Assembly: GCA_947623505.1 (NCBI GenBank)
Contig: CANQGT010000004.1
Location: 1 to 64,000 of the forward strand
DNA: 64,000 nt
Reading direction: 5' to 3'
From: an uncultured Clostridia bacterium
Lineage (GTDB): Bacteria; Bacillota; Clostridia; Oscillospirales; Acutalibacteraceae
This document shows positions 8,001 through 50,401 of this stretch, in pieces. Each line of letters starts with the position of its first letter. Position 1 is the first letter of the stretch. The translations under genes were made by a program, and so were the position numbers. The notes under the pieces are model-generated. The model ran no database searches and was not told where the DNA came from. It saw only the letters and a list, made by a program, of their open reading frames with translations.

Positions 8001-8934
8001 CGCCGTCGTTTCCGCTGCCGTCGATAACCTTGGGATTTCCGTCTTTGTCAAGCCTTACCGGATCGTCCCAGGTAGCGTCCACGGCGAACCATCTGCCGCC
8101 GATATTAACGGCGTTCCACATATGCATTTCAGGAGCGTTGCCCGAATTTTGAATGCCGTGAATAAGCACGCACGGTATGCCGAGCCTTGTGAGGATAACC
8201 TGCATTGCGCGGGAATAGCTTTCGCATACGCCCTCGTGGGTGACAAGCGCGTAAAGCGTGCGGATATAGCCCACATTTTCGGGCTTGCATTCGTTTTCAA
8301 AGCGATAGCTTATTCTTTTTGTAACCTGATCGTGAACATACTGCACCTTTGCGGCCGCAGCGTCGGATTCGTTGTAGCCTTCCGTGTTTACGGCATTCGC
8401 GCCGTCGATTATTTCATCGATAACGGCGTTAAGAGCTTCGTTTTTGGCCTGAACGTCGGCAGCGCCCGAAACGCCTGAAACATAGTAATTATCGGAACGC
8501 CCTATGCCCAAAACGGCGGAATATTCCCCGTTTTCAAGTTTACCAACCCTAAGGGTAAGATAAGAGCTGTCTATATACCACGCTTCGGAATGGTCAAGGT
8601 CAAACGCGTCCTTCGCGGCGGAATAATCGTCCGACAGCGAAGTGTCGCCCGCCAAATAATTGCCGAGCTCCGCCTGCGTGACGGCGCCATTGGCGGCAAG
8701 GTCAACTCCGCTTTTTCCGTCCGCAAGCTCACCGTTTTCATACGCGCTGTAAAGCGCGCCGTATATTTTCTGCGCCCTGCCGTTTAACTGATCGTAGAAG
8801 TAGTGGGAATCGCCCACACCTTGAGCCCCGACGGCGACAGCCGAATTACCGGCCGCCATCGCGACCGTGAGGCTTGAAACGGCCATTACCGCGGCAAGCA
8901 ACCGGCATAACGCTTTTTTCATCTTCTGTTTCAC
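5098..8934 (-). CDS. Large secreted, probably cell-wall-anchored protein with transglutaminase-like domain, Ca-loop-like motif and C-terminal CxxC-rich modules
   Basis: Signal peptide MKQKMKKALCRLLAAVMAVSSLTVAMAAG; transglutaminase-like EGVCESYSRAMQVILTRLGIPC...HMWNAVNIGGRWFAVDATWDDP; DTDCDNFVDGDE; repeated CxxC modules; C-terminal SPPTGE-hydrophobic-KNRKRAYRR sortase-type tail. Confidence 0.8.
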   Translation of the reverse strand: MKQKMKKALCRLLAAVMAVSSLTVAMAAGNSAVAVGAQGVGDSHYFYDQLNGRAQKIYGALYSAYENGELADGKSGVDLAANGAVTQAELGNYLAGDTSLSDDYSAAKDAFDLDHSEAWYIDSSYLTLRVGKLENGEYSAVLGIGRSDNYYVSGVSGAADVQAKNEALNAVIDEIIDGANAVNTEGYNESDAAAAKVQYVHDQVTKRISYRFENECKPENVGYIRTLYALVTHEGVCESYSRAMQVILTRLGIPCVLIHGIQNSGNAPEMHMWNAVNIGGRWFAVDATWDDPVRLDKDGNPKVIDGSGNDGGENDTYLLVGMDVIGANWLPSGVVSTGNAEFSYPEIEDRSFDGENVYTDAVGLHVQYTAMADMEGAEAGQWTIDYNGMGMKKAAEQGFYLILKMYDEHPDGTSHYMEDWYYAAASLAILEMGGSNGFFYDTDDYLKMYTATCEYVEFALTTRRPDGIETWYNPPASNGLSQDPETGWYHGDGSDIIAQTGLLYNMNSSYEAAPYVSKQYPDPTQTNNTGQTYRMHIEFDDRLYHPAVQGEDAPAAISMAGSGAPETEDMKNAANQNVGVKYTCYQQDRDGETVEYELVGEVNFDTDCDNFVDGDEITWLYKCDNDDPNHVHSPEDCYIYGVEFDYRASTNWSDDTTLYDFELTGLVGSRSNRFANHFSYVMSTAMCPYAYRSQGIDWALWGRPSLLDNPNDLDLSKMSVEGVDGSKESLDELQKQMKIDDMNGKLMLVVEEIGTEDGMSREKYREVTDAFDEFTDIDESAVKSSSMYEINFTRLCKMTVAMEGESIRLQVGFPKGYDAEDAANNTVVFKAYHFTRCSANHPCGNEDKQGHKYGDDIVSVEEIPVAVTPYGLVILCSSFSPFELVAFDASKVDADELEKSNNIVVNTDGNGKVIYNGKDAVGANGFIPVKAGENYTFTVQPKEGYTVDVVSVGGLSIPVENNEFTVNYSDLAGLNDVLNVSFVPAQLKQEEEEQGITSAVPNVVSDYEPHEHIYEQDSEKPATCGEAGYTVYKCTVCGRTFTQEIPATGEHTFTEDYDCTTADVCEICGKVVNQAMSHDFSGDAEATSDGHVFACVNPNCRAVSESVPHEGGNATCVSGGICDVCGYEYLPKDASNHTGGTEVRGKKEATFDEEGYTGDVYCLGCGELISAGQTVEKLTETHKHSYGEWQVDGDHHFRECACGETDGYGEHTYENGVCTVCGAKEKAPAAENTRPGSTVSPPTGEDIFLVFWLGALLTASVAAVVYLVVKNRKRAYRR

Positions 8935-12885: not shown

Positions 12886-13794
12886 TTAATGCTCCGAAGC
12901 GAACATTCGCTTTTTAAAAAATTCCGTCATTCTGCCTATCTGCTGCGCGCCCTCTTTGCTTTCGGGCCTAAGCACCGCAAACACATGCGGCAGATCCCTG
13001 CCGTCGAATTTACCGTAATCATCAAGCATTACTTCAACGCCGATTTCTCTGAGCTTAGCGGCCGTTTTAAGCGTGGACGCCCTGCCGAGCATATCGCCCG
13101 AGCTTGTTACAAGATAAGTAGGCGGAAATTCGGCATAAGGCGCTATATCGTCAAAATCCATATAAGCGCCGTATTCGTGATCTTTGTAATCCTTGCCCCA
13201 CATCGGTCTTGTGTATATTCCCATAACACCGCATTTATTCATATAGTTTACGCCCGAGGTGAGCGCAAGGGCTTTGAGCGGCAAATCGAAATCTGCCGTT
13301 TTGAAAATTTTTCTCAGCTTTTCGGAGCTTATGAGCGCCGCCGTGTAAAGCGCAAGCTGGCCTCCCGCCGAATCACCCGTGAGTATAACGTTTTCGGTAT
13401 CGCAGGGATACGAGCCCATATTGAGACTTATCCATTTAAGCGCGTTGGCGCAGTCCTGAAGCTGCTGCACCACCGTTACGGCGGGAGTAAGTCTGTAATT
13501 GATATTGAAAACGGTGAATCCCGCTTTTGCAAGATGCAGGCAGTAAAGCCGGTTAAAGCTTTTGTCGTTTGCCATCCAGCCGCCTCCATGAATATCAATT
13601 ATAACCGGCAGCCTGCCCGCCGAGCCTTCGGGATAATAAACGTCAAGCATATGGCGCGGATCCTTATCGTCAATATAAGGTATATCGTATATCCGCTCAA
13701 TACCCTGCGGTTCTGTTTGGGTGGCTCTCAGCTTCGCGTCTTTTTTTGAGTTGCTTTTCCAAAATTCACCCATAAGTTTAAGAACTAAAGACAT
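12886..13794 (-). CDS. Alpha/beta-hydrolase, esterase/lipase (HSL-like), last gene of the operon
   Basis: DIHGGGW oxyanion motif, GDSAGGQLAL nucleophile elbow, C-terminal D/H; no signal peptide. Confidence 0.85.
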   Translation of the reverse strand: MSLVLKLMGEFWKSNSKKDAKLRATQTEPQGIERIYDIPYIDDKDPRHMLDVYYPEGSAGRLPVIIDIHGGGWMANDKSFNRLYCLHLAKAGFTVFNINYRLTPAVTVVQQLQDCANALKWISLNMGSYPCDTENVILTGDSAGGQLALYTAALISSEKLRKIFKTADFDLPLKALALTSGVNYMNKCGVMGIYTRPMWGKDYKDHEYGAYMDFDDIAPYAEFPPTYLVTSSGDMLGRASTLKTAAKLREIGVEVMLDDYGKFDGRDLPHVFAVLRPESKEGAQQIGRMTEFFKKRMFASEH

Positions 13795-13800
13795 ATCTTT

Positions 13801-16299
13801 TCACCCTCTGCTTTTAAGTTGTGTTTTGATTATATGCCCGATAGCGCGCGAACCTCTTGTGATATATTTCATCATATTGCCGCTTATACCCGTAAGTATC
13901 GGGTTTTTGAGATTTTTCTCGCTTACGCCGTCGGCGTTCGGCTCTTTCAGCTTTACGTTATCTCCGTAAAACGCCTGAGCCGCCGCGCCTTCGGGGGCGG
14001 ATACTACCGCTCCGTCCGCAAACGCCTTTATTTCTTCAAGCGTCTTGCCGCTCGGAAGCGGGGAATCGACGGCGTAAAACGCTATCATCGCCGTTTCGGA
14101 GCTGCCGTTATACGACGGCGCTATGGATTTGCCCTGCGGAGTCACGAGAGTGTAGGTGGCGAGGATTTCGTCTTTCGCCCTGCCCCAGTGATGGCGCTGG
14201 CTGCCGTAATATGTGCCGAACGGGTTCATACGAACAGTTTTATCATTTTCAAGACGCATTGGGCAATATGCCATTGAATTGAGCACCTGCCGCGCGTTTG
14301 CAATCAAAATGCCGCCGTTTTCATCGGTAAGCCCGACAAGGCCGCCCGTAAGCTGATGATTGAAAGAGGCAAGAGCGGCGTTTTTCTCATCGCATTCGGG
14401 GAAAGTTTGCGTTCTGAAAGTTGAAATATCGTCCATAAAATTGCGCTTCACAACCGAAACGTCGCCCGAAAGCTTCGGCGTTATCTGAAACGGAACCGTC
14501 TGTATCCATTTCATATCGGAAAATCTGCCGAGCGAGGAATTTTCGGTGGATATGGAAGTTTCTTCGGGAGTATAGGGATACTGCACGCTTATCCTCGCGA
14601 AAACCGCGTCAGAGCTTTTTACGGTAAAGAAATCATACTCAAAGCTTCCCCCGCGTATCTCGCCGGGCAAATGAATTTCGCCGCTTACGCGCACTCCGCG
14701 GGCGCTTCCGGCGCACTCAAGCGCCGATGCCGTTTTGTTTACAAAAAAGTAATCCTTGCCCCCGTAGGTGATAAAGCTTTTGAGAAATTCGTCGTTGCCG
14801 AGAATTTTTCCGCCCGACGACACCTCAAAAAGATTGCCGTGCACGGAAAATTTCATCGTCAGCCTGCCGCTTGACACGATATTTGAAAATTCCCTTTTTG
14901 CCCGCCTGCCGTTTTTCACTATTTCTATTTCGTATTTATCGGCGATTTCCTTAAATCTCATAATCGCGAAGACGGAGGAATTGTCGCCGTCCATAGGTAT
15001 GAGAGCCCAATCGGTGAGCCCCCGTCCTTTTACCGATAATTCAGACACGCTTTCGGGCTTTTCGCCGAGCTTTAACTGAACGCACTGAAAATCGGATTTC
15101 GTTATATTGTAAACGGTGATTTTCTCACTTTTGGGAAGCGCCGCTTTTTCAAAATCCACCACCCTCTGCGCAAGGCCGAGCGCGGCTTTTTCCCTTTGTA
15201 TGTTCAAAACGGGCGTGGCAAGCCCGAAATGAGTTGTGGAGAGCAGCAAAACTCTGTCGTTAAAAGACGGCGAATCCTTATCCCTGCGGCTGTTGAGCCT
15301 TGCCATGGCCCTCGCCCGCTCAAGAGAAGTCCATATTTTTCTGTTGAACGGTTTTTCCGACCAAGAAGCGTATCCGGTGAAATTACCGTCGGCGGTATCC
15401 TGCGTAAATTCGATTTTTCCCAACGGTTTATGATTTTTGAGATAACCGCCGGGAGTATCGTAAACAATGTACGGCAAATCCGATATTTCCTTTACAAGGC
15501 CGTGTATGCCGTCCGTATTCGCGATTTTTCCTGTAAGCGGGCCGAGCCCCATAGTCTCCCAAAACATACCGTCGGCGTCCATATTTATGAATATAAACAA
15601 ATCGCTGTTTATCTCACCGCTCGCCTGTTTGGCGTGCAGTTCCTTCACCCAAGCCCGCAGACAGCCGGCGTCGCATACGTCGGAATTGCTGTAGGTGGGT
15701 ATTATCGTCATACTTTCGCCCTTGTAAGTATAAGTTACGGGGTTAAACGCTATCTCGTCCGGCAGTTTGGGAATTATCGTGCGAAAAGCGTCAAAGGGTA
15801 CACAGCTGTAATAAAGGCAGAGCGCTTTTACACCTAATTTGTTGTAAAGCGTAACCTGAGACGGGGTGAACATAACCTCCTGCGGTCTCACGATTTTTTC
15901 GCATTTTCCGAAAATATCAGAAAGACCCGAGCCGGCGGGATTGGTTACGGCAAGCTCAACGGAGGCGCAAAATTCATCCTCCGTCATAGCGGAGAGCGCG
16001 CCGTTGTTGTAGCCCATAATAATATTTTCGTCGCCGTATTTATCAACGCGTTCTTTCATTCCCTCGATTATATCGGGGGCATATTCGGGCAGTATCTTTT
16101 CAAGGGAAAAGAAATTTTCCGTATCCCACGTTCCTTTCACGGGAATGCCCTGCTCGTTGAATTTATTTAATATATCAATGGTTTTTCGCATTATCCTTAT
16201 ATCGGAGCCGAAGCCGAGACTGTCGTTCGTATCGCCCCTGTAAGAATGATAACAGTTAACGTGAAAGCCGTAGGCAACGTGTATTTTATTATCTTTCAC
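13801..16299 (-). CDS. Uncharacterised 832-aa protein with GH38/GH57-like layout (putative glycoside hydrolase)
   Basis: N-terminal barrel-like region HVAYGFHVNCYHSYRGD, GTWDTENF; central SLERARAMARLNSRR and STTHFGLATPVLNIQREKAALGLA resembling the helical region of alpha-mannosidase-like enzymes; beta-rich C-terminus. Confidence 0.45.
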   Translation of the reverse strand: MKDNKIHVAYGFHVNCYHSYRGDTNDSLGFGSDIRIMRKTIDILNKFNEQGIPVKGTWDTENFFSLEKILPEYAPDIIEGMKERVDKYGDENIIMGYNNGALSAMTEDEFCASVELAVTNPAGSGLSDIFGKCEKIVRPQEVMFTPSQVTLYNKLGVKALCLYYSCVPFDAFRTIIPKLPDEIAFNPVTYTYKGESMTIIPTYSNSDVCDAGCLRAWVKELHAKQASGEINSDLFIFINMDADGMFWETMGLGPLTGKIANTDGIHGLVKEISDLPYIVYDTPGGYLKNHKPLGKIEFTQDTADGNFTGYASWSEKPFNRKIWTSLERARAMARLNSRRDKDSPSFNDRVLLLSTTHFGLATPVLNIQREKAALGLAQRVVDFEKAALPKSEKITVYNITKSDFQCVQLKLGEKPESVSELSVKGRGLTDWALIPMDGDNSSVFAIMRFKEIADKYEIEIVKNGRRAKREFSNIVSSGRLTMKFSVHGNLFEVSSGGKILGNDEFLKSFITYGGKDYFFVNKTASALECAGSARGVRVSGEIHLPGEIRGGSFEYDFFTVKSSDAVFARISVQYPYTPEETSISTENSSLGRFSDMKWIQTVPFQITPKLSGDVSVVKRNFMDDISTFRTQTFPECDEKNAALASFNHQLTGGLVGLTDENGGILIANARQVLNSMAYCPMRLENDKTVRMNPFGTYYGSQRHHWGRAKDEILATYTLVTPQGKSIAPSYNGSSETAMIAFYAVDSPLPSGKTLEEIKAFADGAVVSAPEGAAAQAFYGDNVKLKEPNADGVSEKNLKNPILTGISGNMMKYITRGSRAIGHIIKTQLKSRG

Positions 16300-17727
16300 T
16301 TATTCATTCTCCTCCCTGCTCTTTCTCCGCTCTTCCATTTGCAGATGCAGCTTTTCAAGTTCCTTTTTGGAGAGCTTGTAGAAAAACGCTATGAGCACAA
16401 ACATAACTATAAGTATGATGGCGGGAATAAGAGTTGAGATATTGTATAATTTCGGCAAAACCTCTTTCGGCTGAACGGCGAGCTCGCCGTTGTAGCCTAT
16501 CCAACCGAGTATCGCCGCGGCGCCGGCGCCGGCAATGGTCTGCCCCAGCTTTCTTGTGAAAGAATAAAAGCTGTAGGAAGTGCCCTCTTCGCGCCTGCCG
16601 GAAAGAAATTCCTGATAGTCTATAACGTCCATTACAAGCGCCCATACCTCAAGCACAAGGAAAGTCTGCCCGGCGCCTGAGAAAAAGGTTAGAGCAAGGA
16701 ACACATACGGATTTTCGGCGGCGGGAGTAAAACCTATAAAATACATTATGATATTTACGACGGCGGCAAAGCCGAGGCCCGCTGCGCAAATCTCTTTTTT
16801 ACCGAATTTCTTTATGAGCTTGCCCATAAACGGGAGGAACATAGCCATCGGCAGATAAGTGCATATGGTAACTATACTGTAAAGACCCGGTTTTTCAAAA
16901 TAGTTTTTGAAAAGATAGTTATAAACCGTTTGCGTGTACATTTGGAAACAGATAAGCAGCATCGACACGGCGCAAAGTACTATAAACGGTCTGTTTTTTA
17001 TAAGCACGCTCACCGTCTGAAGCACGTTGAAATCGCTCTGTTTCTGAGTGGGCGGAAGCTGAACTCTTTCTTTGGTGAGTTTAAAATGCAAAACGAAAAT
17101 CATTACCGACAGTATGGAAAGGCAGCCTACCGCGACGGAAAGCTTAGTGGGATCGAGCACCTTCGCGTTCGTGCCGTCCGCGTTGGCGACCGTGGAATAC
17201 ACCATAAGCGGAAGAAGTATCTGCGCGGGAAGCCCGCCCACGCCGGCGCCTATCGACCTCCACATCGAAAGAGACGAACGCTCGATCTCGTCATCGGTTA
17301 TGACCGAGGCGAGAGAGCCGTAGGGAATATTTACGCCGGTGTACATCATTCCGTAGAAAATATAAGTAATATAAGCATAAATCAGATACTGATTTTCCGA
17401 GAGACCGGGCACCTTGAAGAACATTAAGAACGCGCCCAGCGCCATCGGGAAGGACGCCCAAATTATGTAAGGCCTGAAGCGCCCGAATCTGGTTGGCTTT
17501 CTTGAATCTATAAAAGCTCCCCACATCGGATCGTTCAAAGCGTCCCATACCCTTGCCACTATCATCAGCACGGTGATTTTGCCGGCGGATATGTGCAGCA
17601 CGTCCGTATAGAACATATTAAGGAACGCCGCGATCAGCGAGAAAGACAGCAACCCGCCCATATCGCCGAGAGCGTAGCCTATCTTGTCCTTGAATTTTAT
17701 TCCGTGAGTCTGCATTTTTTCTTCCAT
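16300..17727 (-). CDS. GPH-family (glycoside-pentoside-hexuronide) MFS symporter
   Basis: KIGYALGDMGG, RVWDALNDPMWGAFID, RFGRFRPYI motifs; start at MEEKMQ with RBS aagggg. Confidence 0.88.
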   Translation of the reverse strand: MEEKMQTHGIKFKDKIGYALGDMGGLLSFSLIAAFLNMFYTDVLHISAGKITVLMIVARVWDALNDPMWGAFIDSRKPTRFGRFRPYIIWASFPMALGAFLMFFKVPGLSENQYLIYAYITYIFYGMMYTGVNIPYGSLASVITDDEIERSSLSMWRSIGAGVGGLPAQILLPLMVYSTVANADGTNAKVLDPTKLSVAVGCLSILSVMIFVLHFKLTKERVQLPPTQKQSDFNVLQTVSVLIKNRPFIVLCAVSMLLICFQMYTQTVYNYLFKNYFEKPGLYSIVTICTYLPMAMFLPFMGKLIKKFGKKEICAAGLGFAAVVNIIMYFIGFTPAAENPYVFLALTFFSGAGQTFLVLEVWALVMDVIDYQEFLSGRREEGTSYSFYSFTRKLGQTIAGAGAAAILGWIGYNGELAVQPKEVLPKLYNISTLIPAIILIVMFVLIAFFYKLSKKELEKLHLQMEERRKSREENE

Positions 17728-17743
17728 AAAATAAACCCCTTTC

Positions 17744-18844
17744 TTAATTTTGTTTTTCAAAGAAGAAATGCTTTGCCGCGAGCGCCGCGGCGCCTATATA
17801 TGATATTTTATCATTAAGCTCTGAGAGCTTGATTATATCCTTATCGAAATTGACATTATATCTGAGGCACTGCCTTGTCAGCTTTTCCGCAACCGTACCG
17901 TTTTTGAAAACGGAGCCGAAAAGCACTATCTCCTTAGCGTCGAGTATGGTTGCGGTGTTTGTAAGAGCCAAAGCCACCATATCGGTTTTTATATCCATAA
18001 GATTCACCACGTCGGGATCCTTGCTTTCCGTCACCTCGTCAAGAGCGCTTTTGCCCGTCTCCCTCAAAATCGTCATCGAAGAGACTTCTGTTTCAAGGCA
18101 GCCGTAGCGCCCGCAGCGGCATTTTCTGCCGTCTTTTCTTATAATGTAATGCCCTATTTCGGCTATTCCCGCGTCGTTTCCCGTTACTATCCTTCCGTCG
18201 GACGCGATGGCGGAGCCGATACCCGGCCCCCATTTTAAAAACAAAACGGCGCTTTCGGGCTTTGTTTTTCCGTATATCATCTGCGCGAGAGCAAAACTGC
18301 GGATATTGTTTTCTGCAACAACGGGAAGCCTCATCGCGCCGCGCGCTTTTTTCTTCATCTCCTCAATATCCCACATTCCGAATCGGTTATCATCTGCCGA
18401 ACCTATAACACATATCGAAACGCAGAGAAATCTGCTTCTGTCAACCCCGCAGCTTTCGAGAACGCTTTTACCCACGTCAACGATTTCGTCAACAGAGCTT
18501 TCGGGAGGCAGGCTTTTGCTTTTTACGGGAGTTCCGTCAAGCCTTACGGCGCAGACGGTTATTTTGTCCACCTCAGCGTTTATTCCTACCGCGTAAAATC
18601 TGTTTAGGCAAAGGCTGAGAGGTATCTTTTTTCTTCCGGCTTTCGCGGCCGTATCATCCGTTTCGCCCTGCTCGCTGATAAAGCCGTCCCTGATAAGACC
18701 CGTGCATATCTTCGTCACCGCCGCAGGGGTTAGCTCCAGCAGGCGGGCAATATCCTTTCTGCTGAGATTCGGCATACCGTTCAGCAGATATAATACCGAA
18801 GATTTGTTTGAGCGTTTTATGTCTTTAAGATTAAGTCCCTGCAA
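17744..18844 (-). CDS. ROK-family transcriptional regulator
   Basis: N-terminal wHTH (RKDIARLLELTPAAVTKIC), ROK domain with Zn motif CRCGRYGCLET. Confidence 0.88.
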   Translation of the reverse strand: MQGLNLKDIKRSNKSSVLYLLNGMPNLSRKDIARLLELTPAAVTKICTGLIRDGFISEQGETDDTAAKAGRKKIPLSLCLNRFYAVGINAEVDKITVCAVRLDGTPVKSKSLPPESSVDEIVDVGKSVLESCGVDRSRFLCVSICVIGSADDNRFGMWDIEEMKKKARGAMRLPVVAENNIRSFALAQMIYGKTKPESAVLFLKWGPGIGSAIASDGRIVTGNDAGIAEIGHYIIRKDGRKCRCGRYGCLETEVSSMTILRETGKSALDEVTESKDPDVVNLMDIKTDMVALALTNTATILDAKEIVLFGSVFKNGTVAEKLTRQCLRYNVNFDKDIIKLSELNDKISYIGAAALAAKHFFFEKQN

Positions 18845-18854
18845 ATTCCCACCT

Positions 18855-19589
18855 CTACTTCACCAAAAGGGATATGCCGCTTATAAGCATAAGAATATAT
18901 GTAAGCGCCAAAAACGCATTTTTACTGAGCTTTTTGCCAATATAATTTCCGAGAAGAACGGCCAACACGAGAACCGCCAGCGAAACGGCGAGCATAGCGG
19001 TGACCTTCGCCGTGAAATATCCGCTTGATATATCGCTGAAAAGTATTGCCGTATTCAAAACTATCCATACCGCCGAAAGCGTGGCGCGAAATTCCTGCGT
19101 GTCCCTCAGCTTCATTGAGGCGTAAGTGACAAGCAGAGGCCCGCCGCAGACGAAAGCACCGTGTACGACTCCCGCCGCCGCGAGAACGGCATACTGCGAA
19201 AAGGTATTTAACGAAGCGCCGTCTTTCTTTTTTATGAATCTGTAACCGTTTACAAGCGAAAATATTATAACCGTTGCGCCGAGAATTTTGTAAGTGACAT
19301 ACGCGCTGCCGGCAAGATATGGCGACAGAAAAGTTCCGGCGATTATTCCCGCAAGCATAACGAGAATGATTTTAAGCAGTTCTTTTTTGTTTACGCTTTT
19401 TCGGCACTGTAAAAGCACTCCCGCCGAGGCGGCTATTCCGAGCACGTTAAGTATCGGCTTTGCCGAGGTGTAACCTACGAGCATAACCGAAAACGGCATT
19501 GCCAAAACCGTGCCCGCAAAGCCCGTTACGCACTGTATGATATTTGAAAGAAAAACTACAATTTCAAAAATTATTTCATTTACCGTCAA
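18855..19589 (-). CDS. TauE/SafE-family sulfite/organosulfonate exporter
   Basis: Hydrophobic membrane protein, FAGTVLAMPFSVMLVG and GAFVCGGPLLVTYA repeats typical of TauE/SafE. Confidence 0.8.
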   Translation of the reverse strand: MTVNEIIFEIVVFLSNIIQCVTGFAGTVLAMPFSVMLVGYTSAKPILNVLGIAASAGVLLQCRKSVNKKELLKIILVMLAGIIAGTFLSPYLAGSAYVTYKILGATVIIFSLVNGYRFIKKKDGASLNTFSQYAVLAAAGVVHGAFVCGGPLLVTYASMKLRDTQEFRATLSAVWIVLNTAILFSDISSGYFTAKVTAMLAVSLAVLVLAVLLGNYIGKKLSKNAFLALTYILMLISGISLLVK

Positions 19590-20920
19590 AAGCGTTCAAC
19601 CTCTATACCAAACATAGCGCCAAGTGCCTCAAGCTCGCCGCTTATATCGCCGTAGCCGACTGCGAAATGCGGCTCCCAGCCGCCGATAACGGCTTTGCTT
19701 ATGATTTCGGCGCACGGCGCGGAGGTTTTCACAACAAGCGACGTGCCTGTAAACTGCTTAGGCTTATCGAGTATTTCACCCGTGCAGACGAATATTCTGA
19801 AAGCGCCGTCCGGCTTTTTGCCTATTCTTAAAACGGTTGCCTTTTCGCAGGGTTTGCAGCCGAATTCAAGAGTGGGGCCGATCTTTCTGTTGCAGTGAAC
19901 TCCCGCAACAGCCCCCGTATCCCGCCTCGCAAGCGAACACGCGGCGGTGCCGCAGTGCCAAAAGGTGACTGTGTTTTCCGCCTCGTCCATAGAAACGGGA
20001 TCGCCGAAAAACGCGGGGCTTCCCGTAAGAAACTGAGCCGCGTACATTGACAGAGCGCCGTAAGCGTCCGCCTCGCAGGCGGAGGGGATATTCATATCGT
20101 TTAGCATCGCCAGCACCGCGCAGACGGGCGTGCCGTATGAAGTAAAGAAATCGGGCCAGCACCGTGAAGCTATCGCCCCCACGCCGTTTTCCGCGCAGTA
20201 TTCGTAATACGCCTTATACAGCTTCGCAAAATCGGAGACGTTCTTTTCGGGGATATCCGAGAGGCATTTGATACAGCCGCGCGCCTTTTCAAGATAATCT
20301 GCGGCATCTGCATCGGTATAGCCTTTTGCCCTGTCGATAAGCTCCCTCGCCTCTATCGAATCAAGAGTGACGCCGAAATTTTTAAGCATCTCACTGTCGC
20401 CCGCCCTGCCGAAGCCAAAGCCCTGCGGGGTGTGGCCTATCTGAAGCAGTTTCAGACCTTTCATTGATTTTTTGAGCCGCGCCGTGCTTATGTAAGAATT
20501 TATCTTACTTTTCACGGCTTTCTCGTTCGGAGAGCCGAAAACATAGCCGTAACGCCTGCCGAGCGCCGAAAGCGCGTTTCCGGCTGAAAACGCGCCGGTA
20601 AGCGAATTGAGCCTGAGCCTGCCGCCGTCAACGGCGGGCTCGCGCAGCGCCCAGAGAAGCACGGGGCAGTCAAACCGCCGCGCTATCTCGCTTATGTACG
20701 CTCCGTTTGCGAAAGTCACATTCTGAACTATTACAAGATCAGGCGAAACCGTGCCGAGAAACGCCTCAAGCTTATCGATTGTGAGCAGCATTTCTTCGGG
20801 ATATTTTATATCCGCCTGAATTTCTTTTAACGCCGAAACGGAGCTTTCGTATTCTTTTTGGGCGGATTCCAAATGGAAAGTACCCACTCCTATCGGTATA
20901 TAAACGCATTCAAATTTCAT
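19586..20920 (-). CDS. L-fucose/L-arabinose isomerase-like sugar isomerase (candidate sulfoquinovose isomerase)
   Basis: ASRCWPDFFTSYGTPVCAVLAMLNDMNIPSACEADAYGALSMY and WHCGTAACSLA blocks typical of the fucose-isomerase-like family; ATGA overlap with TauE gene. Confidence 0.7.
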   Translation of the reverse strand: MKFECVYIPIGVGTFHLESAQKEYESSVSALKEIQADIKYPEEMLLTIDKLEAFLGTVSPDLVIVQNVTFANGAYISEIARRFDCPVLLWALREPAVDGGRLRLNSLTGAFSAGNALSALGRRYGYVFGSPNEKAVKSKINSYISTARLKKSMKGLKLLQIGHTPQGFGFGRAGDSEMLKNFGVTLDSIEARELIDRAKGYTDADAADYLEKARGCIKCLSDIPEKNVSDFAKLYKAYYEYCAENGVGAIASRCWPDFFTSYGTPVCAVLAMLNDMNIPSACEADAYGALSMYAAQFLTGSPAFFGDPVSMDEAENTVTFWHCGTAACSLARRDTGAVAGVHCNRKIGPTLEFGCKPCEKATVLRIGKKPDGAFRIFVCTGEILDKPKQFTGTSLVVKTSAPCAEIISKAVIGGWEPHFAVGYGDISGELEALGAMFGIEVERF

Positions 20921-20934
20921 ATTTTCACCTGTTT

Positions 20935-21600
20935 TCAGTAATTGAGCCTTTTGTTTTCCCCTATCAGCCCGATATGGGCGCCCTGCTTCACAAGCGGCTC
21001 CCTGTCCTTATGCGCAAGCACCCACTTGTTTTTCATCAAAAGCATTTCGTCCTCTTCGGTAACGGTATTTTTACAACGCTCAAGCGGCGTGTTCGTGCCT
21101 TTTAAGAGTATTACTATATCTTTAAAGCCGTGATCGCTGACGGAGCACGGGCTTAAATGCAGAGTTGTCTGATACATTTCGAGAACGGTTCCCTTAGACA
21201 CGAAAAACACCTTTTCGTTTCCGACGTAAAATCTGCCGTTTTCTATCTGCCAAATATGGCCTAAAGCAAGCATAAAATCGGTTACGGCAATATTGACCTC
21301 ACTGCATTTGTGATATTCAAAGCCGTTGTAGGTGGTGTTTTTTCCGTTGCAGTAGCCTATCTGTATCGGCATTTCGCCGTATATTGATTTTTCGATTTCA
21401 CTGCGGACGGCGGTTTTTTCCATCTTTTCTACCGACGGAACATAGATATTTCCGCTTTCGGGGATTTTCGTTTCGCTTTCCATATATTCCGAAAGCTCGG
21501 ACAAATCAAACCCCGTGTGTATTCTGCCGTAGGTTTTAAACTCCTCGTCAAAAACGGAGAAGATCTTAACGTCGTTTACGGCGTTGAGGCGCTCAAGCAT
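20935..21600 (-). CDS. DUF4867-like protein
   Basis: 221-aa protein (VKIFSVFDEEFKTYGRIHTGFD...GYCNGKNTTYNGFEYHKCSEVN...HLSPC) resembling the DUF4867 family recalled from sulfo-transaldolase clusters. Confidence 0.55.
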   Translation of the reverse strand: MLERLNAVNDVKIFSVFDEEFKTYGRIHTGFDLSELSEYMESETKIPESGNIYVPSVEKMEKTAVRSEIEKSIYGEMPIQIGYCNGKNTTYNGFEYHKCSEVNIAVTDFMLALGHIWQIENGRFYVGNEKVFFVSKGTVLEMYQTTLHLSPCSVSDHGFKDIVILLKGTNTPLERCKNTVTEEDEMLLMKNKWVLAHKDREPLVKQGAHIGLIGENKRLNY

Positions 21601-22459
21601 TGTAATCCCCTCTTACGACCTTGTAGGTGGCGCGCCAGTCCTCTTTGCCTATGCCCGCTTCCATTCCTTTGCGGTAAACCTCTCTCGCCGTCTCCATTCC
21701 GGGCATCGGGATATCAGCCTGCTCCGCGAGGCGGGAGCATATGCCGAGATCCTTATTTTCGTTTTCAAGTGAAAACGCGGTAGTCCAGTTTTCGCTTTCG
21801 ATATTTTTCCACTGCGCGTCAAGATAAAAGCACTGAGCGCCGCCGTAGGATATCGCCGTGTGATAATCCTCGGCGGATATGCCCATCTTTCTCGCAAGCA
21901 AAAGCGTTTCGTTCACTCCGTTTTGAATTTCGGCGCAAAGTGCGTTGTGGCATATTTTCATAACAAGCCCCTTGCCGTTTTCGCCCATTCTTATCACGTT
22001 GCGGCCCATATATTTAAGTATTGGTTCTATAACGGGAAACAGCTCCTCATCGCAGCCGACAAGCACGCCGAGCGTGCCGTCTATCGCGGCGGGCTTTGAT
22101 TTAACGACGGGCGCGTCCGCGAACTGAGCGCCTCTTGCCTTTATTATTCGCGAAACCTCAACGGAAACCGCGAGATCTATCGTACTCATATCTATACAGA
22201 TCATACCCGATTTTATTTCGTGGAGTATCTCGGTATAAACGGCTTTGACGTGCTCCGACTTCGGCACCATAGTGATTATTAAATCGGAATTTTCCGCCAC
22301 CTGAGAATTATTTTCGCAGGCGACCGCTCCGAGTGAGGCGAGCTTTTCGACCTGAGCCCTGTTGAGGTCGTTTACAAAAACCGCGTCGTCGTGTTTTTTT
22401 ATGATGTTTTCGCACATTGACTCGCCCATAATTCCGAGCCCGATAAAACCTATCCTCAT
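21593..22459 (-). CDS. 3-hydroxyisobutyrate dehydrogenase-family oxidoreductase (candidate sulfolactaldehyde reductase)
   Basis: MRIGFIGLGIMGESMCENI Rossmann, DAPVVKSKPAAIDGTL, GENGKGLVMKICHN (catalytic Lys region); start chosen at MRIGF. Confidence 0.8.
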   Translation of the reverse strand: MRIGFIGLGIMGESMCENIIKKHDDAVFVNDLNRAQVEKLASLGAVACENNSQVAENSDLIITMVPKSEHVKAVYTEILHEIKSGMICIDMSTIDLAVSVEVSRIIKARGAQFADAPVVKSKPAAIDGTLGVLVGCDEELFPVIEPILKYMGRNVIRMGENGKGLVMKICHNALCAEIQNGVNETLLLARKMGISAEDYHTAISYGGAQCFYLDAQWKNIESENWTTAFSLENENKDLGICSRLAEQADIPMPGMETAREVYRKGMEAGIGKEDWRATYKVVRGDYNA

Positions 22460-22469
22460 TTTCTTCTCC

Positions 22470-23159
22470 TTATTCTTCGGTAACGGTATTGTCCCACGCG
22501 CTTTGGAATTTCGCAAGGCCGTAATCGGTGAACGGATGATAAAAACTGTCCTTAAACACCTGAAGCCCCGCCGTGACTATATCGGCGCCCGCGACGGCGC
22601 AGTCCACAACCTGTTTGCCGTTTCTTACCGCCGCGCAGATTATCTGCGTTTTGCCGAGAAAGCCGTAATTCCCGTAAATCTTAACTATATCGTTGATATA
22701 CTTCACGCAGTCCTCGCCGCTGTTCTCTTTCCAGCCGATAAAGGGCGAAACAAAAAGCGAATTGTTTTTTGCCGCGATTATCGCCTGAGACGGCGAAAAC
22801 ACCAGCGTCAGATTTGTTCTCACGCCTTTTTTCTCAAGCCGCCTCGCCGCGGTTATACCCGCCTGCGTGCACGGTATTTTAATTACAAAATTCGGGCTCA
22901 TCGCCGCTATTGTCTCGCCCATCGCCACCATTTCATCGGCGTCGTCAAGGTGGGGATTTATCTCAACGGACACGGGGAATTTTTCCCATCCCCCGATTCC
23001 CTTTTCCTTAACAAACTCGGCGAGCTCGCCGATGACCGTGTAAAACGGCTTGCCGGAATCCATAATATGTTTCGGATTTGTTGTAACGCCGTCTATACCG
23101 AACGTATCGTAGGCCTCTCTTATCTCGTCTATTTTTGCGCTGTCAAGAAAATATTTCAT
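22470..23159 (-). CDS. Transaldolase-family protein (candidate 6-deoxy-6-sulfofructose transaldolase)
   Basis: MKYFLDSAKIDEIREA, GVTTNP, VIKIPCTQAGITAAR (Schiff-base Lys block), GADIVTAGLQVF. Confidence 0.88.
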   Translation of the reverse strand: MKYFLDSAKIDEIREAYDTFGIDGVTTNPKHIMDSGKPFYTVIGELAEFVKEKGIGGWEKFPVSVEINPHLDDADEMVAMGETIAAMSPNFVIKIPCTQAGITAARRLEKKGVRTNLTLVFSPSQAIIAAKNNSLFVSPFIGWKENSGEDCVKYINDIVKIYGNYGFLGKTQIICAAVRNGKQVVDCAVAGADIVTAGLQVFKDSFYHPFTDYGLAKFQSAWDNTVTEE

Positions 23160-23177: not shown

Positions 23178-25169
23178 TCAAGCATTTTTTATATCTAAAA
23201 GCTCTTCGCTTTTTTCGGCGTTTTTTCTTATGAAAACGGGTATCTCCCCCAACGGCGCCGCTATCTCGTATTCACCGCCGGGATATAGAACTCCGCTCCA
23301 AAGATGCACCCACTCGTCGTTCGGAAGATATACCCGCCTGCTTTCGGCGTTTTCCTTAAGCACGGGGGCAACAAGAATATCTCCGCCGAGAAGATATTCA
23401 TACGCCTCGCTGTAAGCCCTTTCCTCATCATAGCGGAAAAACAGAGGCCTTATGATTCCGACTCCCTTTTCGGCGTTTTCAGCGTCGCATTCTTTCAGAT
23501 ACGGCTTCAGCGCCCTGTGTATTCTGCTCATTTTCGCGTGATGCGAAAGTACCCGATCATCATAGTCAAACTGTGCGTTGACGTCGGGATTAAGCCCCTC
23601 GTGACCGCGCATAAGCGGCGAAAAGGCGTTCATCTCCGCCCAGCGCATAAACAGCTCCGGCGTGCGCTTAAGACTTAGAAAAGTGGTGTATCCGCCCACG
23701 TCGGAATGACTGAGCCCGAATCCGCAGCACGTCAGCGACAGCGCCGCGGGGATAACACTCGGCAATCCGAAATCTATCGAATAATCCACGTGGTTGTCTC
23801 CGTTCCACATCATCGTTGAATATTTTTTGGTATCGGTAAAGCCCGACCTTGTGAAAAACATTATTTCGCCGAGCTTGCCGCTCTCCTCCACCGCCTCGCG
23901 GTTGAGTTTCGCCCAAAGCGACGCCCAGACGTTGTGCTTTAGCCGCGCGTCCTCATTGCTGAAAAGAACGCAGTCGGTAGGCAAATACTCGCCGAAATCA
24001 GCCATCCAACCGGAAAAGCCGAGATCTATCATATTCCTTTTGATTATATTTTTCAGCCATTCATACGCCTGCGGATTCGTAAGATCGACCATTGCGGCGG
24101 GAAAAGTGGTTATGGTGACGTAATAATCCCCGCCGTCCCTGTTCTTTACGCAATAGCCCTTTTCGTGAGCCTCTTTATAGAGCGGCTTCTCCACGGCGAG
24201 AAACGGATTGATATATCCGAGCACCCGTATGCCTTTTTCATTCAGTTCCTTTATCTTTTTATCGAGATCCGGGTAGAGCTCTTTATCCCACTGCCAGTTC
24301 CACTGAAGCTGTTTTCCGACTGCGGTAACTCTTCTGCCCTCCCAATCCTGTATCCACACGCCGCACACCGCCGTGCCCGCGTCAAGGCAGGCTTTTACCT
24401 TGCTCATCATAATATCCGTGCCGCCCTGTATGCCGAGTATGGCTCCGTCAAACACCCAATCGGGCAGGCGCGGCTGGCGGCCGAGCAGAGAAGTGAGATT
24501 GCTTTCAAGCTCCTCAAAGCTTTCGCCCACTCCTATGTAGAAAGGCGCTATCGAATCGGTTTTGAGAATATGAACGTCGGCTTTTGTAAAATCAAACTCG
24601 CACCGCGCCGTTGAGGCGGAATGGAAAAAATATTTTCGCGAGCTGATGAAAGTGGGCTCCGCGTAATAAGTTTCATAATTCCCGAATTTTTGCTTTTTCG
24701 TTGTGTTGCGAACGCCGAAAGCGATTTTAACGATTTTCTTCGCCGTTTGCAGCGCGTTTATATGTTCTGCAACCCATACGTTGACCTTTTTTCCGCGAAG
24801 ATTAAATTCCGTAAAATTTTCACCGCAGCCGTATATCCTTTCATCGGATTCGGCAGGCAGATTTATCCACATTCTGTTAAATTCTTCGGAAATACGAGGT
24901 GTAAAGGTTAACATCTTTACACCTGTGCTTATTATAAACTCTCCGCAGTCGAGACCTACGGTGAGCTCATTGCCGTTCAATGAAAGACGCTTTATACTGA
25001 AAACAGATGACGAGAAAATCTTTTCCTTGATTTTAAAACTGCCGTGGCTCATAGAATATGTGTTGCAGCCCTTGCCGAGCCTGCAAAATTCATCGCCCTC
25101 TTTAAATTCACAAAGGATTTTTCCTCCATAGCAAACGGAAGCCCTGCCGTTTTCACATAAGATTTTCAA
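23178..25169 (-). CDS. GH31 sulfoquinovosidase-like alpha-glycosidase
   Basis: GIQGGTD, WIQDWEGRR..GKQLQWNWQWD, GWMADFGEYLPTD (nucleophile), SHSDVGGYTT (acid/base), very close to recalled E. coli YihQ. Confidence 0.88.
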   Translation of the reverse strand: MKILCENGRASVCYGGKILCEFKEGDEFCRLGKGCNTYSMSHGSFKIKEKIFSSSVFSIKRLSLNGNELTVGLDCGEFIISTGVKMLTFTPRISEEFNRMWINLPAESDERIYGCGENFTEFNLRGKKVNVWVAEHINALQTAKKIVKIAFGVRNTTKKQKFGNYETYYAEPTFISSRKYFFHSASTARCEFDFTKADVHILKTDSIAPFYIGVGESFEELESNLTSLLGRQPRLPDWVFDGAILGIQGGTDIMMSKVKACLDAGTAVCGVWIQDWEGRRVTAVGKQLQWNWQWDKELYPDLDKKIKELNEKGIRVLGYINPFLAVEKPLYKEAHEKGYCVKNRDGGDYYVTITTFPAAMVDLTNPQAYEWLKNIIKRNMIDLGFSGWMADFGEYLPTDCVLFSNEDARLKHNVWASLWAKLNREAVEESGKLGEIMFFTRSGFTDTKKYSTMMWNGDNHVDYSIDFGLPSVIPAALSLTCCGFGLSHSDVGGYTTFLSLKRTPELFMRWAEMNAFSPLMRGHEGLNPDVNAQFDYDDRVLSHHAKMSRIHRALKPYLKECDAENAEKGVGIIRPLFFRYDEERAYSEAYEYLLGGDILVAPVLKENAESRRVYLPNDEWVHLWSGVLYPGGEYEIAAPLGEIPVFIRKNAEKSEELLDIKNA

Positions 25170-30219: not shown

Positions 30220-30236
30220 ACTTCATATTTTCCTTT

Positions 30237-47167: not shown

Positions 47168-47827
47168 TTATTTCGTTGCCATTTCGGCTCTTGCCTCTTT
47201 TATGCGCTGAACAAAAAGCTTGCCCGTTTCGGTTATCTTATCGTAATCGCCCGTTTTCGCGCCGGCGATAAGCGATGAACCCGCACCGCAGGCGATAGCG
47301 CCCGCCTTTATCCAATCCTTAACGTTGTTTACGTCAACGCCGCCGGAAGGCATCATTATCGCATTCGGTATCGGCCCGTGTATATCCTTAATGAACGAGG
47401 GGCCCGCTATATCGCCGGGGAATACCTTAAGCACGTCGGCTCCGCATTCCATAGCGGCAACGGCCTCGGTGGGCGTATATATTCCGGGCATAGACGGTAT
47501 GCCGTATCTGTTGCAGCACTTTACCGTTTCGGGATCAAAATACGGAGCCACAACATATTCCGCGCCGGCAAGAATGGCTATTCTCGCGGTGGCGGCATCC
47601 ATAACGGTGCCCGCGCCGATAATTATTTCGCCGCTGCTGTATTTTGACCTCATAGCCTCTATAAGTTTATCCGCGTGCGGAACGGTGAAGGTAAGCTCTA
47701 TTGCCGCAACGCCGCCGGCAATGCAGGCGTCCGTAATTTTTTCCGCCTGCTCAACAGAAGTGGCGCGCACAACGGCGACAATGCCGACCTCCTGAATTTT
47801 AGCGAGTGTTTCGATTTTATTCGCCAT
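47168..47827 (-). CDS. kdgA: 2-dehydro-3-deoxy-phosphogluconate aldolase (KDPG/KHG aldolase)
   Basis: GVAAIELTFTVPHA, IGAGTVMDAATARIAILAGAEYVVAPYFDP, KVFPGD. Confidence 0.9.
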   Translation of the reverse strand: MANKIETLAKIQEVGIVAVVRATSVEQAEKITDACIAGGVAAIELTFTVPHADKLIEAMRSKYSSGEIIIGAGTVMDAATARIAILAGAEYVVAPYFDPETVKCCNRYGIPSMPGIYTPTEAVAAMECGADVLKVFPGDIAGPSFIKDIHGPIPNAIMMPSGGVDVNNVKDWIKAGAIACGAGSSLIAGAKTGDYDKITETGKLFVQRIKEARAEMATK

Positions 47828-47885
47828 AATTTTATTATCCTCCCAAAATTTATTCGGCCGCCAGTTGGCAAACCGTAAAAAATTA

Positions 47886-49004
47886 TTATCTCTGAACTCT
47901 GGCCGACGCGCCGTTTACCTTTGCCTCGACCTCTTTCAGCGAAGCCATCGAGGTATCTCCCGGCGTGGTCATCGCGAGCGCGCCGTGAACAACGCCGTAA
48001 TCTACGGCTTTCTGCGCGTCACCATAAGTCATAAGCCCATAGATAAGCCCCGAAGCGAAGCTGTCCCCTCCGCCGACTCTGTCTAATATCTCAAGTCCGG
48101 GAAATTCGATGGAATTATAAACCCTGCCGTCCGCGTAGCAGATAGCTTTCCAGTCGTTGACCGTGGCGGTTTTTACGGTGCGAAGCGTTGTGGCGATAAC
48201 CTTGAAATTCGGGTACGCTTTGCATACCTCGCCGAGCATCTTAACATAGCCGTCCATATTGAGCTCCTTGAGTTCGGCGTCGTTGCCCTCAACCTCAAAG
48301 CCGAGGCAGGCGGTGAAGTCTTCCTCGTTGCCTATCATAACGTCAACATATTTCGCAAGCTCATTATTTACCTCCTGCGCCTTCGCCTGACCGCCTATAT
48401 CGTTCCAAAGCGACGGCCTGTAGTTGAGATCGTAGGAAACGACCGTGCCGTATTTCTTTGCCGCCTTGACCGCCTCAATGGCGACCTGCGCCGAGCTTTC
48501 GGAAAGCGCCGCGAATATGCCGCCCGTGTGAAGCCAGCGCGCGCCGAGAGTACCGAATATATAATCCCAATCGAAATCGCCCGGCTTCATCTGGCTTATG
48601 GCGGTGTTGCCTCTGTCCGAAGCGCCGACGGCGCCCCTGATACCGAAGCCTCTTTCCGTGAAATTTATGCCGTTTCTCGTTGTTCTACCGATACCGTCGT
48701 ACTTAACCCATTTTATGAGAGAAGTGTCCACGCCGCCCTGAAGAATAAGGTCTTCAAGCAAACGGCCTATCTCGTTTTCTGCAAACGCCGTTGCGACGGC
48801 TGTTTTCATTCCGAAACATCTTCTCAAACCGCGGGCAACATTATATTCGCCGCCGCCCTCCCATGCTTTGAATGAGCGGGCGGTTTTGATCCTGCCCTCG
48901 CCGGGGTCAAGGCGAAGCATTATTTCTCCGAGGGATATTTCGTCAAACGCGCATTCTTCCTTAGGTCTTAAATTCAAGTTCATTTTTCGTCCTCCAAATA
49001 TCAA
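47886..49004 (-). CDS. kdgK: PfkB-family 2-keto-3-deoxygluconate kinase
   Basis: GGEYNVARGLRRCFG, VSYDLNYRPSLW, DRVGGGDSFASGLIYG; adjacent to KDPG aldolase and uxaC. Confidence 0.85.
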   Translation of the reverse strand: MIFGGRKMNLNLRPKEECAFDEISLGEIMLRLDPGEGRIKTARSFKAWEGGGEYNVARGLRRCFGMKTAVATAFAENEIGRLLEDLILQGGVDTSLIKWVKYDGIGRTTRNGINFTERGFGIRGAVGASDRGNTAISQMKPGDFDWDYIFGTLGARWLHTGGIFAALSESSAQVAIEAVKAAKKYGTVVSYDLNYRPSLWNDIGGQAKAQEVNNELAKYVDVMIGNEEDFTACLGFEVEGNDAELKELNMDGYVKMLGEVCKAYPNFKVIATTLRTVKTATVNDWKAICYADGRVYNSIEFPGLEILDRVGGGDSFASGLIYGLMTYGDAQKAVDYGVVHGALAMTTPGDTSMASLKEVEAKVNGASARVQR

Positions 49005-50401
49005 AATTTAAAATAATTCATAGCGTTATAATAAGAGATGCCCTGCACTATTTCTTTAAGTATCTCCGTATCGTTCGCGTACCGGCCGTCCTCTACCCAT
49101 CTGCCGACGAGCCTGCAAAGGATACGGCGGAAATAATCGTGCCTGCCGTAGGAAGTTATGGAACGCGAATCCGTCTCCATTCCTATAAACTTTCCGAGTA
49201 TGCCGAGATTGCCGAGAGTTTTCATCTGCTCGGTCATTCCGTCCATAGTATCAAGGAACCACCAGGCGGGGCCGAACTGGAGCTTGGACTGCGCCTCATC
49301 GCTCTGGAAATTGCCGAGCATAGTCGCAAGCACGGTATTATCCTTTGGATTCAGATTGAAAAGCACTGTTTTTGGGAGCTTTCCTTTTACATTAAGCGCA
49401 TCGAGAAAACGGCTGAGCGGGTAGGCAATTTCACGGTCGCCCACGGAATCGAAACCTATATCCGCGCCTTTTTCCGCGAACATGGCGGTGTTGTTGTTTC
49501 TCATTGCACCTATATGGATTTCCATTGCCCAACCGAGCTTGTGATACTTTTCACCGAGCGCGAGCATTATTTTCGTTTTGTACGCGTCCGTTCCCTCAAG
49601 GGAAACGCTCCCGCCGTTCATCGCCCGCTCAAAAACGGCGTTTATATCGCGATCCTCGGCCTCCTTATACGGAACATAGTCGAAGGACTGATCCGATATT
49701 TTGCAGCCGACAGATTTGAAATAATCGGCGCGTTTGAGCAACGCGGCGATAACGTCTTTATATGATTTTATCTCAATTCCGGCGGTTTTGCCGAGAAGAG
49801 CTATATATTCGGCAAAGCCGGAAAGATTCATATTGAGCGCCTTGTCGGGGCGGAAAGTCGGCAGCACCTTGCAGTCAAAGCCCTGCGCGTCTTTAAGCAG
49901 TTTATGATATTTCAGATCGTCGGTCGGATCGTCCGTTGTGCATATCACCTTAACATTTGAGCGGGAGATAATGCTTTGCGGCCTGAAATCATTTTCGGCA
50001 ATTATATTATTTGCCCTGTCGTATATCTCGTCGGCTGTTTTGGAGCAAAGAGGAGTCGTTATCCCGAAATATTTTTTCAGCTCGATATGAGCCCAGTGAT
50101 AAAGCGGATTTCCGATCGCGTATTGCAGGGCGTAGGCGAATTTTTCAAATTTTTCCCTGCCCGTTCTGTTCCCCGTGCAGTAATCCTCACCGATTCCGCA
50201 GGAGCGCATCGCGCGCCATTTATAGTGATCGCCCGCAAGCCAAAGCTCCGAAATATCCTTGGGAGGAGCGTTTTCGTAAATTTCCTTGGGGCTGAGGTGG
50301 CAGTGATAATCGCACACCGGTAAATCTTCGCAGTAATCGTGAAAAAGGCGTTTTGCCGTATCGGTATCAAGCAGAAAATCCGCGTCCATAAATTCTTTCA
50401 C
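49001..50401 (-). CDS. uxaC: Glucuronate isomerase
   Basis: VCDYHCHLSPKEIYEN, DHYKWRAMRSCGI, GMETDSRSITSYGRHDYFRRILC. Confidence 0.95.
   Translation of the reverse strand: MKEFMDADFLLDTDTAKRLFHDYCEDLPVCDYHCHLSPKEIYENAPPKDISELWLAGDHYKWRAMRSCGIGEDYCTGNRTGREKFEKFAYALQYAIGNPLYHWAHIELKKYFGITTPLCSKTADEIYDRANNIIAENDFRPQSIISRSNVKVICTTDDPTDDLKYHKLLKDAQGFDCKVLPTFRPDKALNMNLSGFAEYIALLGKTAGIEIKSYKDVIAALLKRADYFKSVGCKISDQSFDYVPYKEAEDRDINAVFERAMNGGSVSLEGTDAYKTKIMLALGEKYHKLGWAMEIHIGAMRNNNTAMFAEKGADIGFDSVGDREIAYPLSRFLDALNVKGKLPKTVLFNLNPKDNTVLATMLGNFQSDEAQSKLQFGPAWWFLDTMDGMTEQMKTLGNLGILGKFIGMETDSRSITSYGRHDYFRRILCRLVGRWVEDGRYANDTEILKEIVQGISYYNAMNYFKF

Follow-up and report, generated by a model that had tools for sequence, protein, structure and literature searches.

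What is the role of P832, an 832-residue protein encoded within an operon for sulfoquinovose (SQ) degradation? In the window (the whole 64,000-nucleotide stretch of DNA that was analyzed), its gene is housed in a full sulfo-transaldolase (SFT) set that brings together SQase, SQ isomerase, transaldolase, SLA reductase, DUF4867 and exporter genes (Table 1). The open reading frame described in an earlier note on this DNA is present and uninterrupted, on the minus strand, which that note had not given, and contains the motifs quoted there: HVNCYHSYRGD from residue 13, GTWDTENF from residue 56 and STTHFGLATPVLNIQREKAALGLA from residue 354. The start codon is GTG; GGGAGGAG shortly precedes it, within the 3' end of the GPH symporter gene. 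The TAA of the GPH gene is followed directly by this GTG (a gap of 0 nt), and 6 nt separate the P832 stop codon from the α/β-hydrolase gene, a layout that supports the co-transcription that had been proposed. The GPH gene itself probably starts at an internal ATG (MEEKMQTHG). No signal peptide is apparent on P832 by inspection of its sequence, as had also been noted.

Table 1. Features of the window discussed in the text; positions are those of the window, and residue numbers are those of P832.
Feature	Position	Strand	Remarks
α/β-hydrolase (BD-FAE/Abhydrolase_3)	12886..13794	-	last gene of the operon
P832, GH57/GH38-superfamily, unnamed sequence family	13801..16299	-	832 aa, GTG start
P832 domains, as predicted by modelling			catalytic barrel 1-300; helices 308-387; β domains 394-790; C-terminal helix 808-830
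Codon His357 in TTHFG	15229..15231	-	corresponds by region to the zinc ligand in the GH38 helical domain; invariant
Codons Asp241-Ala-Asp243, after β7	15571..15579	-	Asp241, proposed acid/base; invariant in aligned relatives
Codons Gln140-Glu141, after β4	15877..15882	-	Glu141, proposed nucleophile; invariant in aligned relatives
Codons His13-Val-Asn15, β1 motif	16255..16263	-	invariant in aligned relatives
GPH-family cation symporter	16300..17760	-	PF13347, TIGR00792
ROK-family regulator	17744..18844	-	
TauE/SafE exporter	18855..19589	-	
SftI-like sulfoquinovose isomerase	19586..20920	-	NF048012, E 3.8e-117, below equivalog cut-off
DUF4867 protein (SftX)	20935..21600	-	PF16161, E 5.6e-74
β-hydroxyacid dehydrogenase family, probable sulfolactaldehyde reductase	21593..22516	-	
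Transaldolase/fructose-6-phosphate aldolase family, probable SftT	22470..23159	-	PF00923
GH31 sulfoquinovosidase (YihQ type)	23178..25169	-	opens the operon; NF007746 above cut-off (756.6 bits)
Hexuronate genes: UxaC, PfkB/KdgK-like kinase, KDPG/KHG aldolase	47168..50401	-	outside the SFT operon

The SFT operons of Eubacterium rectale and Bacillus megaterium (PMC11968277) share with the window the GH31 SQase, SftT, the reductase, SftX/DUF4867, SftI and the exporter. Unlike these known operons, that of the window adds the genes for P832 and the α/β-hydrolase next to the GPH symporter. The gene sets of PMC11968277 and PMC13219744 lack P832, in line with the earlier note, which was aware of no such protein in described sulfoglycolysis.

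Searches of sequence libraries left P832 without a name. On its own it matched neither Pfam (E ≤ 0.1, GH38 models included) nor NCBIfam, and nothing in the PDB was found at E ≤ 10 with the single sequence or with a 23-sequence profile. Among 23 family members, no GH38 model was listed at E ≤ 10, and three touched the GH57 model PF03065 with a best E of 0.07, which is below significance. Genome searches collected 57 relatives at 45–89% identity. The alignment of the 58 family sequences contains 194 invariant or nearly invariant positions, and mean column identity is 84% over residues 1–400 versus 75% for the whole protein. Pairwise dN values are 0.05–0.12 and dS values 0.8–1.9, giving dN/dS ratios of about 0.03–0.09 that are alike in SFT-linked and free-standing copies; P832 is under strong purifying selection. 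The relatives, the invariant positions and the low dN relative to dS together establish that P832 is a real gene and not a chance open reading frame. Its spread is narrow: the family occurs in 20 of 398 genomes and 12 of 135 genera of the same bacterial family, only in its own genome among 391 sampled at class level, and with no significant match elsewhere among 300 sampled at phylum level, which rules out a broad distribution. Carriers whose record title gives a source come mostly from the herbivore gut. A tree of 45 P832 proteins resolves two main SFT-linked lineages with a free-standing clade of 19 between them. P832 is thus nameless in every library searched, yet conserved in gut Clostridia, many of them from herbivores.

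The GH38/GH57-type architecture that the earlier note had read from the motifs is supported by structure prediction. The full-length AlphaFold2 model (31 sequences; pLDDT 84, pTM 0.88) contains the α/β barrel, helical bundle and β domains of the GH38 fold, and its best PDB matches by Foldseek were GH38 α-mannosidases (E 5.9e-20 over 905 columns, TM about 0.5), at about 10–11% identity, followed by the GH57 glucanotransferase 1k1x (E 8.9e-15). When the catalytic domain (first 400 residues) was modelled alone (pLDDT 79, pTM 0.82), 1k1x was the best match (E 1.5e-11, TM 0.63), ahead of other GH57 and GH38 enzymes. The whole chain thus resembles GH38 and the catalytic domain GH57; the two models and the Foldseek searches rule out an unrelated non-hydrolase fold. 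By hhalign, P832 aligned collinearly and weakly with a seven-sequence GH38 profile (E 0.009–0.014, probability 3–5%), and the comparison with a GH57 profile was uninformative, as that profile holds two sequences only.

The GH38 α-mannosidases of Streptococcus pyogenes (SpGH38, 2wyh/2wyi) and Enterococcus faecalis (3lvt, 5kbp) are like P832 in their domain order over the whole length. In SpGH38, zinc is bound by His13, Asp15, Asp125 and His351, and the positions of nucleophile and acid/base are occupied by Asp125 and Asp232, respectively (PMC2815779). SpGH38 residues His13, Asp15, Asp125, Asp232 and His351 correspond in close chain order to His13, Asn15, Glu141, Asp241 and His357 of P832, in a register taken from sequence alignment and not from coordinates; for His357 the hhalign register agrees with the zinc ligand to within one residue. 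P832 differs from GH38 in having Asn15 for the zinc ligand Asp15 and Gln140/Glu141 for the nucleophile Asp, and in giving no Pfam GH38 match. Of the GH38 site (His-x-Asp in β1, nucleophile Asp at β4, helical-domain His), the two His positions alone remain, and a metal site in P832 would be uncertain.

In GH57 enzymes, a Glu at β4 and an Asp at β7 are catalytic (PMC6037648). In kind and order, Glu141 and Asp241 of P832 resemble this pair of the GH57 family (Thermococcus litoralis 4-α-glucanotransferase 1k1x, amylopullulanases, branching enzymes): both are invariant and lie in the order expected for GH57. Model confidence is low in the proposed active-site loops, residues 16–30, 242–251, 306–312 and 358–360. 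Glu141 is followed after 15 residues by the next conserved Gly, the same spacing as in our GH57 alignment A4; in the GH38 alignment A3 the spacing is one residue longer. The residue order and the GH57-like Glu-to-Gly spacing suggest that Glu141 would act as the nucleophile and Asp241 as the acid/base in a retaining mechanism. P832 differs from GH57 in its long GH38-like C-terminal part and its His-Val-Asn β1 motif; of the five conserved sequence regions of GH57 (PF03065), CSR-1 differs and CSR-5 was not recognized by eye. Having lost the zinc Asp and matched no model, P832 falls outside GH38 by the tests made, and current models do not place it in GH57 either. With Glu141 and Asp241 fitting the GH57 catalytic pair in kind and order, and Asn15 in place of the GH38 zinc Asp, P832 is a candidate for a new family within the GH57/GH38 superfamily.

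The earlier note had expected P832 to accompany sulfosugar genes, and the outcome depends on the taxonomic range considered. Within the genus, P832 is intact and directly follows GPH in ten SFT operons (that of the window included), and the same arrangement was found in one further operon, at locus L036. Among 37 genomes of the genus, 15 have P832 together with a strong SftI, two P832 only, four SftI only and 16 neither; SftI thus accompanies P832 in 15 of 17 carriers (Fisher p 4.7e-5, uncorrected for ancestry). Both P832-only genomes are incomplete, and in one of them (G012) other SFT genes lie on a contig that ends there. The SFT-bearing genomes of the genus without P832 are G001, G008, G024 and G028, and among the seven carriers in the 57%-identity P832 group of the genus, five have SftI/SFT at another place in their genome. 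The link weakens beyond the genus: SftI is missing from 13 of 15 near-complete family-level carriers, and among 29 genomes reached through loci outside the genus a strong SftI or YihQ-type GH31 was found only with L036, L054 and L056. Neither SftI nor a YihQ-type GH31 was found in the genomes of the 19 free-standing relatives that form one clade. One of the 13 family-level carriers without SftI (G569) has a sulfo-transketolase-like operon (L158:3518-11394) with genes for a GH31 SQase, an isomerase (SftI-like, 26%), DUF4867, an iron alcohol dehydrogenase, TauE, GPH and an RpiB-like protein, the RpiB-like and alcohol dehydrogenase readings having been made by eye. Carriers without SftI rule out a strict dependence of P832 on SFT. 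The proposal that P832 cuts an SQ-glycoside is favored by the co-occurrence with SFT in the genus and opposed by the 19-member clade, and the link of P832 to sulfoquinovose is only partly supported.

P832 is accompanied more steadily by the GPH symporter than by the SFT enzymes. A GPH of the same type (E ≤ 1e-120) is present in 14 of the 20 P832 carriers versus 20 of 378 non-carriers among the 398 family genomes (p 1.8e-12, shared ancestry ignored). Apart from the window, it adjoins P832 in ten loci linked to SFT and in eight that have no SFT genes; in six of the latter (L053, L116, L117, L121, L122, L125) GPH lies immediately upstream of P832, and in one lineage (L057, L058) the order is reversed. 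In a GPH tree, the symporters of the non-SFT pairs L053, L116 and L117 branch within the clade of SFT-linked ones, and those of L121, L122 and L125 cluster with the L168 symporter, which is encoded in an operon with an SQase gene. At least 12 of the 20 GPH-bearing non-carriers hold GPH with or near sulfoquinovose genes. Four carriers (G689, G784, G805, G830) lack this GPH type, and their substrate therefore cannot come from the GPH-P832 pair.

Among named single-substrate transporters, GPH scores best to a glucuronide transporter. At L122 the gene order is GPH, P832, glucuronate isomerase UxaC and mannonate dehydratase UxuA; uronate genes lie beside P832 in this one genome, and two carriers of the same genus are without them. 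The window holds hexuronate genes, and its host is therefore probably able to use a released uronic acid. A second transporter-glycosidase pair is also present in the window (28786-31886, minus strand), where a melibiase-like gene lies beside another MFS_2 symporter gene.

We propose that the GPH symporter, translated just before P832, imports a small glycoside and that P832 would split it in the cytosol as a retaining α-glycosidase, with Glu141 after β4 serving as nucleophile and Asp241 after β7 as acid/base. The likely substrates would be α-glycosides with an anionic C6, left from plant membrane lipids. SQD2 makes both sulfoquinovosyl- and glucuronosyl-diacylglycerol, α-linked. Both lipids occur in photosynthetic organisms and are named together with SQD2 in papers. 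An anionic α-glycoside is ranked first because SQ and glucuronate are both anionic-C6 hexoses and both are found in photosynthetic lipids. Candidate substrates would be sulfoquinovosyl-glycerol, or an SQ-glycoside poorly handled by the GH31 enzyme, and/or glucuronosyl-glycerol; since the operon of the window has its own GH31 sulfoquinovosidase, P832 would be redundant for SQ-glycerol. That P832 is hydrolytic is probable, and that it acts on the cargo of GPH is somewhat less so but still favored; the preference for an anionic substrate over neutral lipid head groups is tentative. For the reading as a whole, a cytosolic retaining α-glycosidase paired with GPH, most likely acting on anionic-C6 glycosides and founding a sequence family, we consider the chances about even.

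Each of the other readings appears less probable. P832 might instead cleave neutral plant-lipid head groups or ordinary α-glycosides, such as α-galactosyl-galactosyl-glycerol or α-glucosides, its place in SFT operons reflecting the joint arrival of thylakoid-lipid head groups. Such an enzyme would be useful without a sulfosugar pathway, which accounts for carriers that lack SFT or SQase; galactose and glycerol need no special pathway, and GH57 includes an α-galactosidase and α-glucan enzymes (PMC6037648). We nevertheless regard it as unlikely, as the linked GPH type recurs in SQ operons and scores best to a glucuronide transporter, and the sole other sugar pathway beside the GPH-P832 pair is for uronate. 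Slightly less likely again is a second, specialized sulfoquinovosidase, strictly for SQ catabolism, that handles the other anomer, another aglycone or, with the α/β-hydrolase, acylated forms. The position and intactness of the gene in SFT operons of the genus and at L036, the genus-level co-occurrence with SftI, the sulfo-transketolase-like operon that G569 has instead and the sulfoquinovosidase suggested for Caproiciproducens of the Acutalibacteraceae (PMC13219744) are all consistent with this role, but the large carrier clade without SftI and YihQ-type GH31 argues against it.

The closest structure to the catalytic domain is a 4-α-glucanotransferase and many relatives stand alone, with no transporter gene beside them, as might be expected if P832 were a transglycosylase, a phosphorylase or a non-catalytic sugar binder on a GH57/GH38 scaffold that, for example, remodels the cell's own glycolipids or glucans. 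The close association with an importer across many lineages and the invariance of the proposed catalytic acids make this, too, rather improbable. Least likely is an unrelated housekeeping role for P832, with its gene only a passenger in the SFT operon: the four SFT-bearing genomes of the genus that lack P832 and the 57%-identity carriers with SFT elsewhere fit such a view, but the 0-nt layout with GPH, the two separate SFT-linked lineages and the strong purifying selection speak against it.

The proposed anionic-glycoside hydrolase would possibly share a substrate class with the sulfoquinovosidases YihQ (GH31) and SqgA (GH188), but no sequence relation of P832 to either was found, and the window has a YihQ-type enzyme besides P832. 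Rumen Caproiciproducens (Acutalibacteraceae) degrade SQ without YihQ or SqgA, for which an unknown sulfoquinovosidase or the release of SQ by other organisms has been suggested (PMC13219744); P832 is a concrete candidate for such an enzyme. A more far-reaching version of our proposal appears doubtful: that P832 represents a new GH family in which a GH38-like scaffold bears catalytic acids of GH57 type, cutting GPH-imported sulfoquinovosyl- and glucuronosyl-glycerol, and that its relatives could be the missing sulfoquinovosidase of gut SQ degraders without YihQ and SqgA. If active, P832 would constitute a new glycosidase family that bridges GH57 and GH38, and even if its substrate proved to be based on uronate or galactose, it would define an importer-enzyme pair.

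Several other genes recur around these loci. Near P832 in L046 and L047, two loci devoid of SFT genes, there are homologues of the α/β-hydrolase (48–49%); the hydrolase is a possible partner esterase of P832, and the link outside SFT drawn from these two loci is only suggestive. Another GH31 (759–765 aa, 26% to the SQase) and a carboxylesterase lie beside the GPH gene in L095, L096 and L175; in G008 and G024 they belong to SFT operons without P832, and in G791 they accompany GPH alone, so that they may form an alternative downstream module. The second GH31 near P832 in L028, L032 and L033 is not the GH31 beside SFT in G008 and G024, as the two are 22–24% identical. Four loci with free-standing P832 (L037, L038, L050 and L063) share a nearby module, found in three different arrangements, that encodes an MFS_2 transporter, a 2-hydroxyacid dehydrogenase, a xylose-isomerase-like TIM protein and an uncharacterized protein of 700 aa. 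Elsewhere in the window (5098-8934, minus strand), a 1278-aa transglutaminase-core protein with a C-terminal hydrophobic stretch is probably a surface protein.
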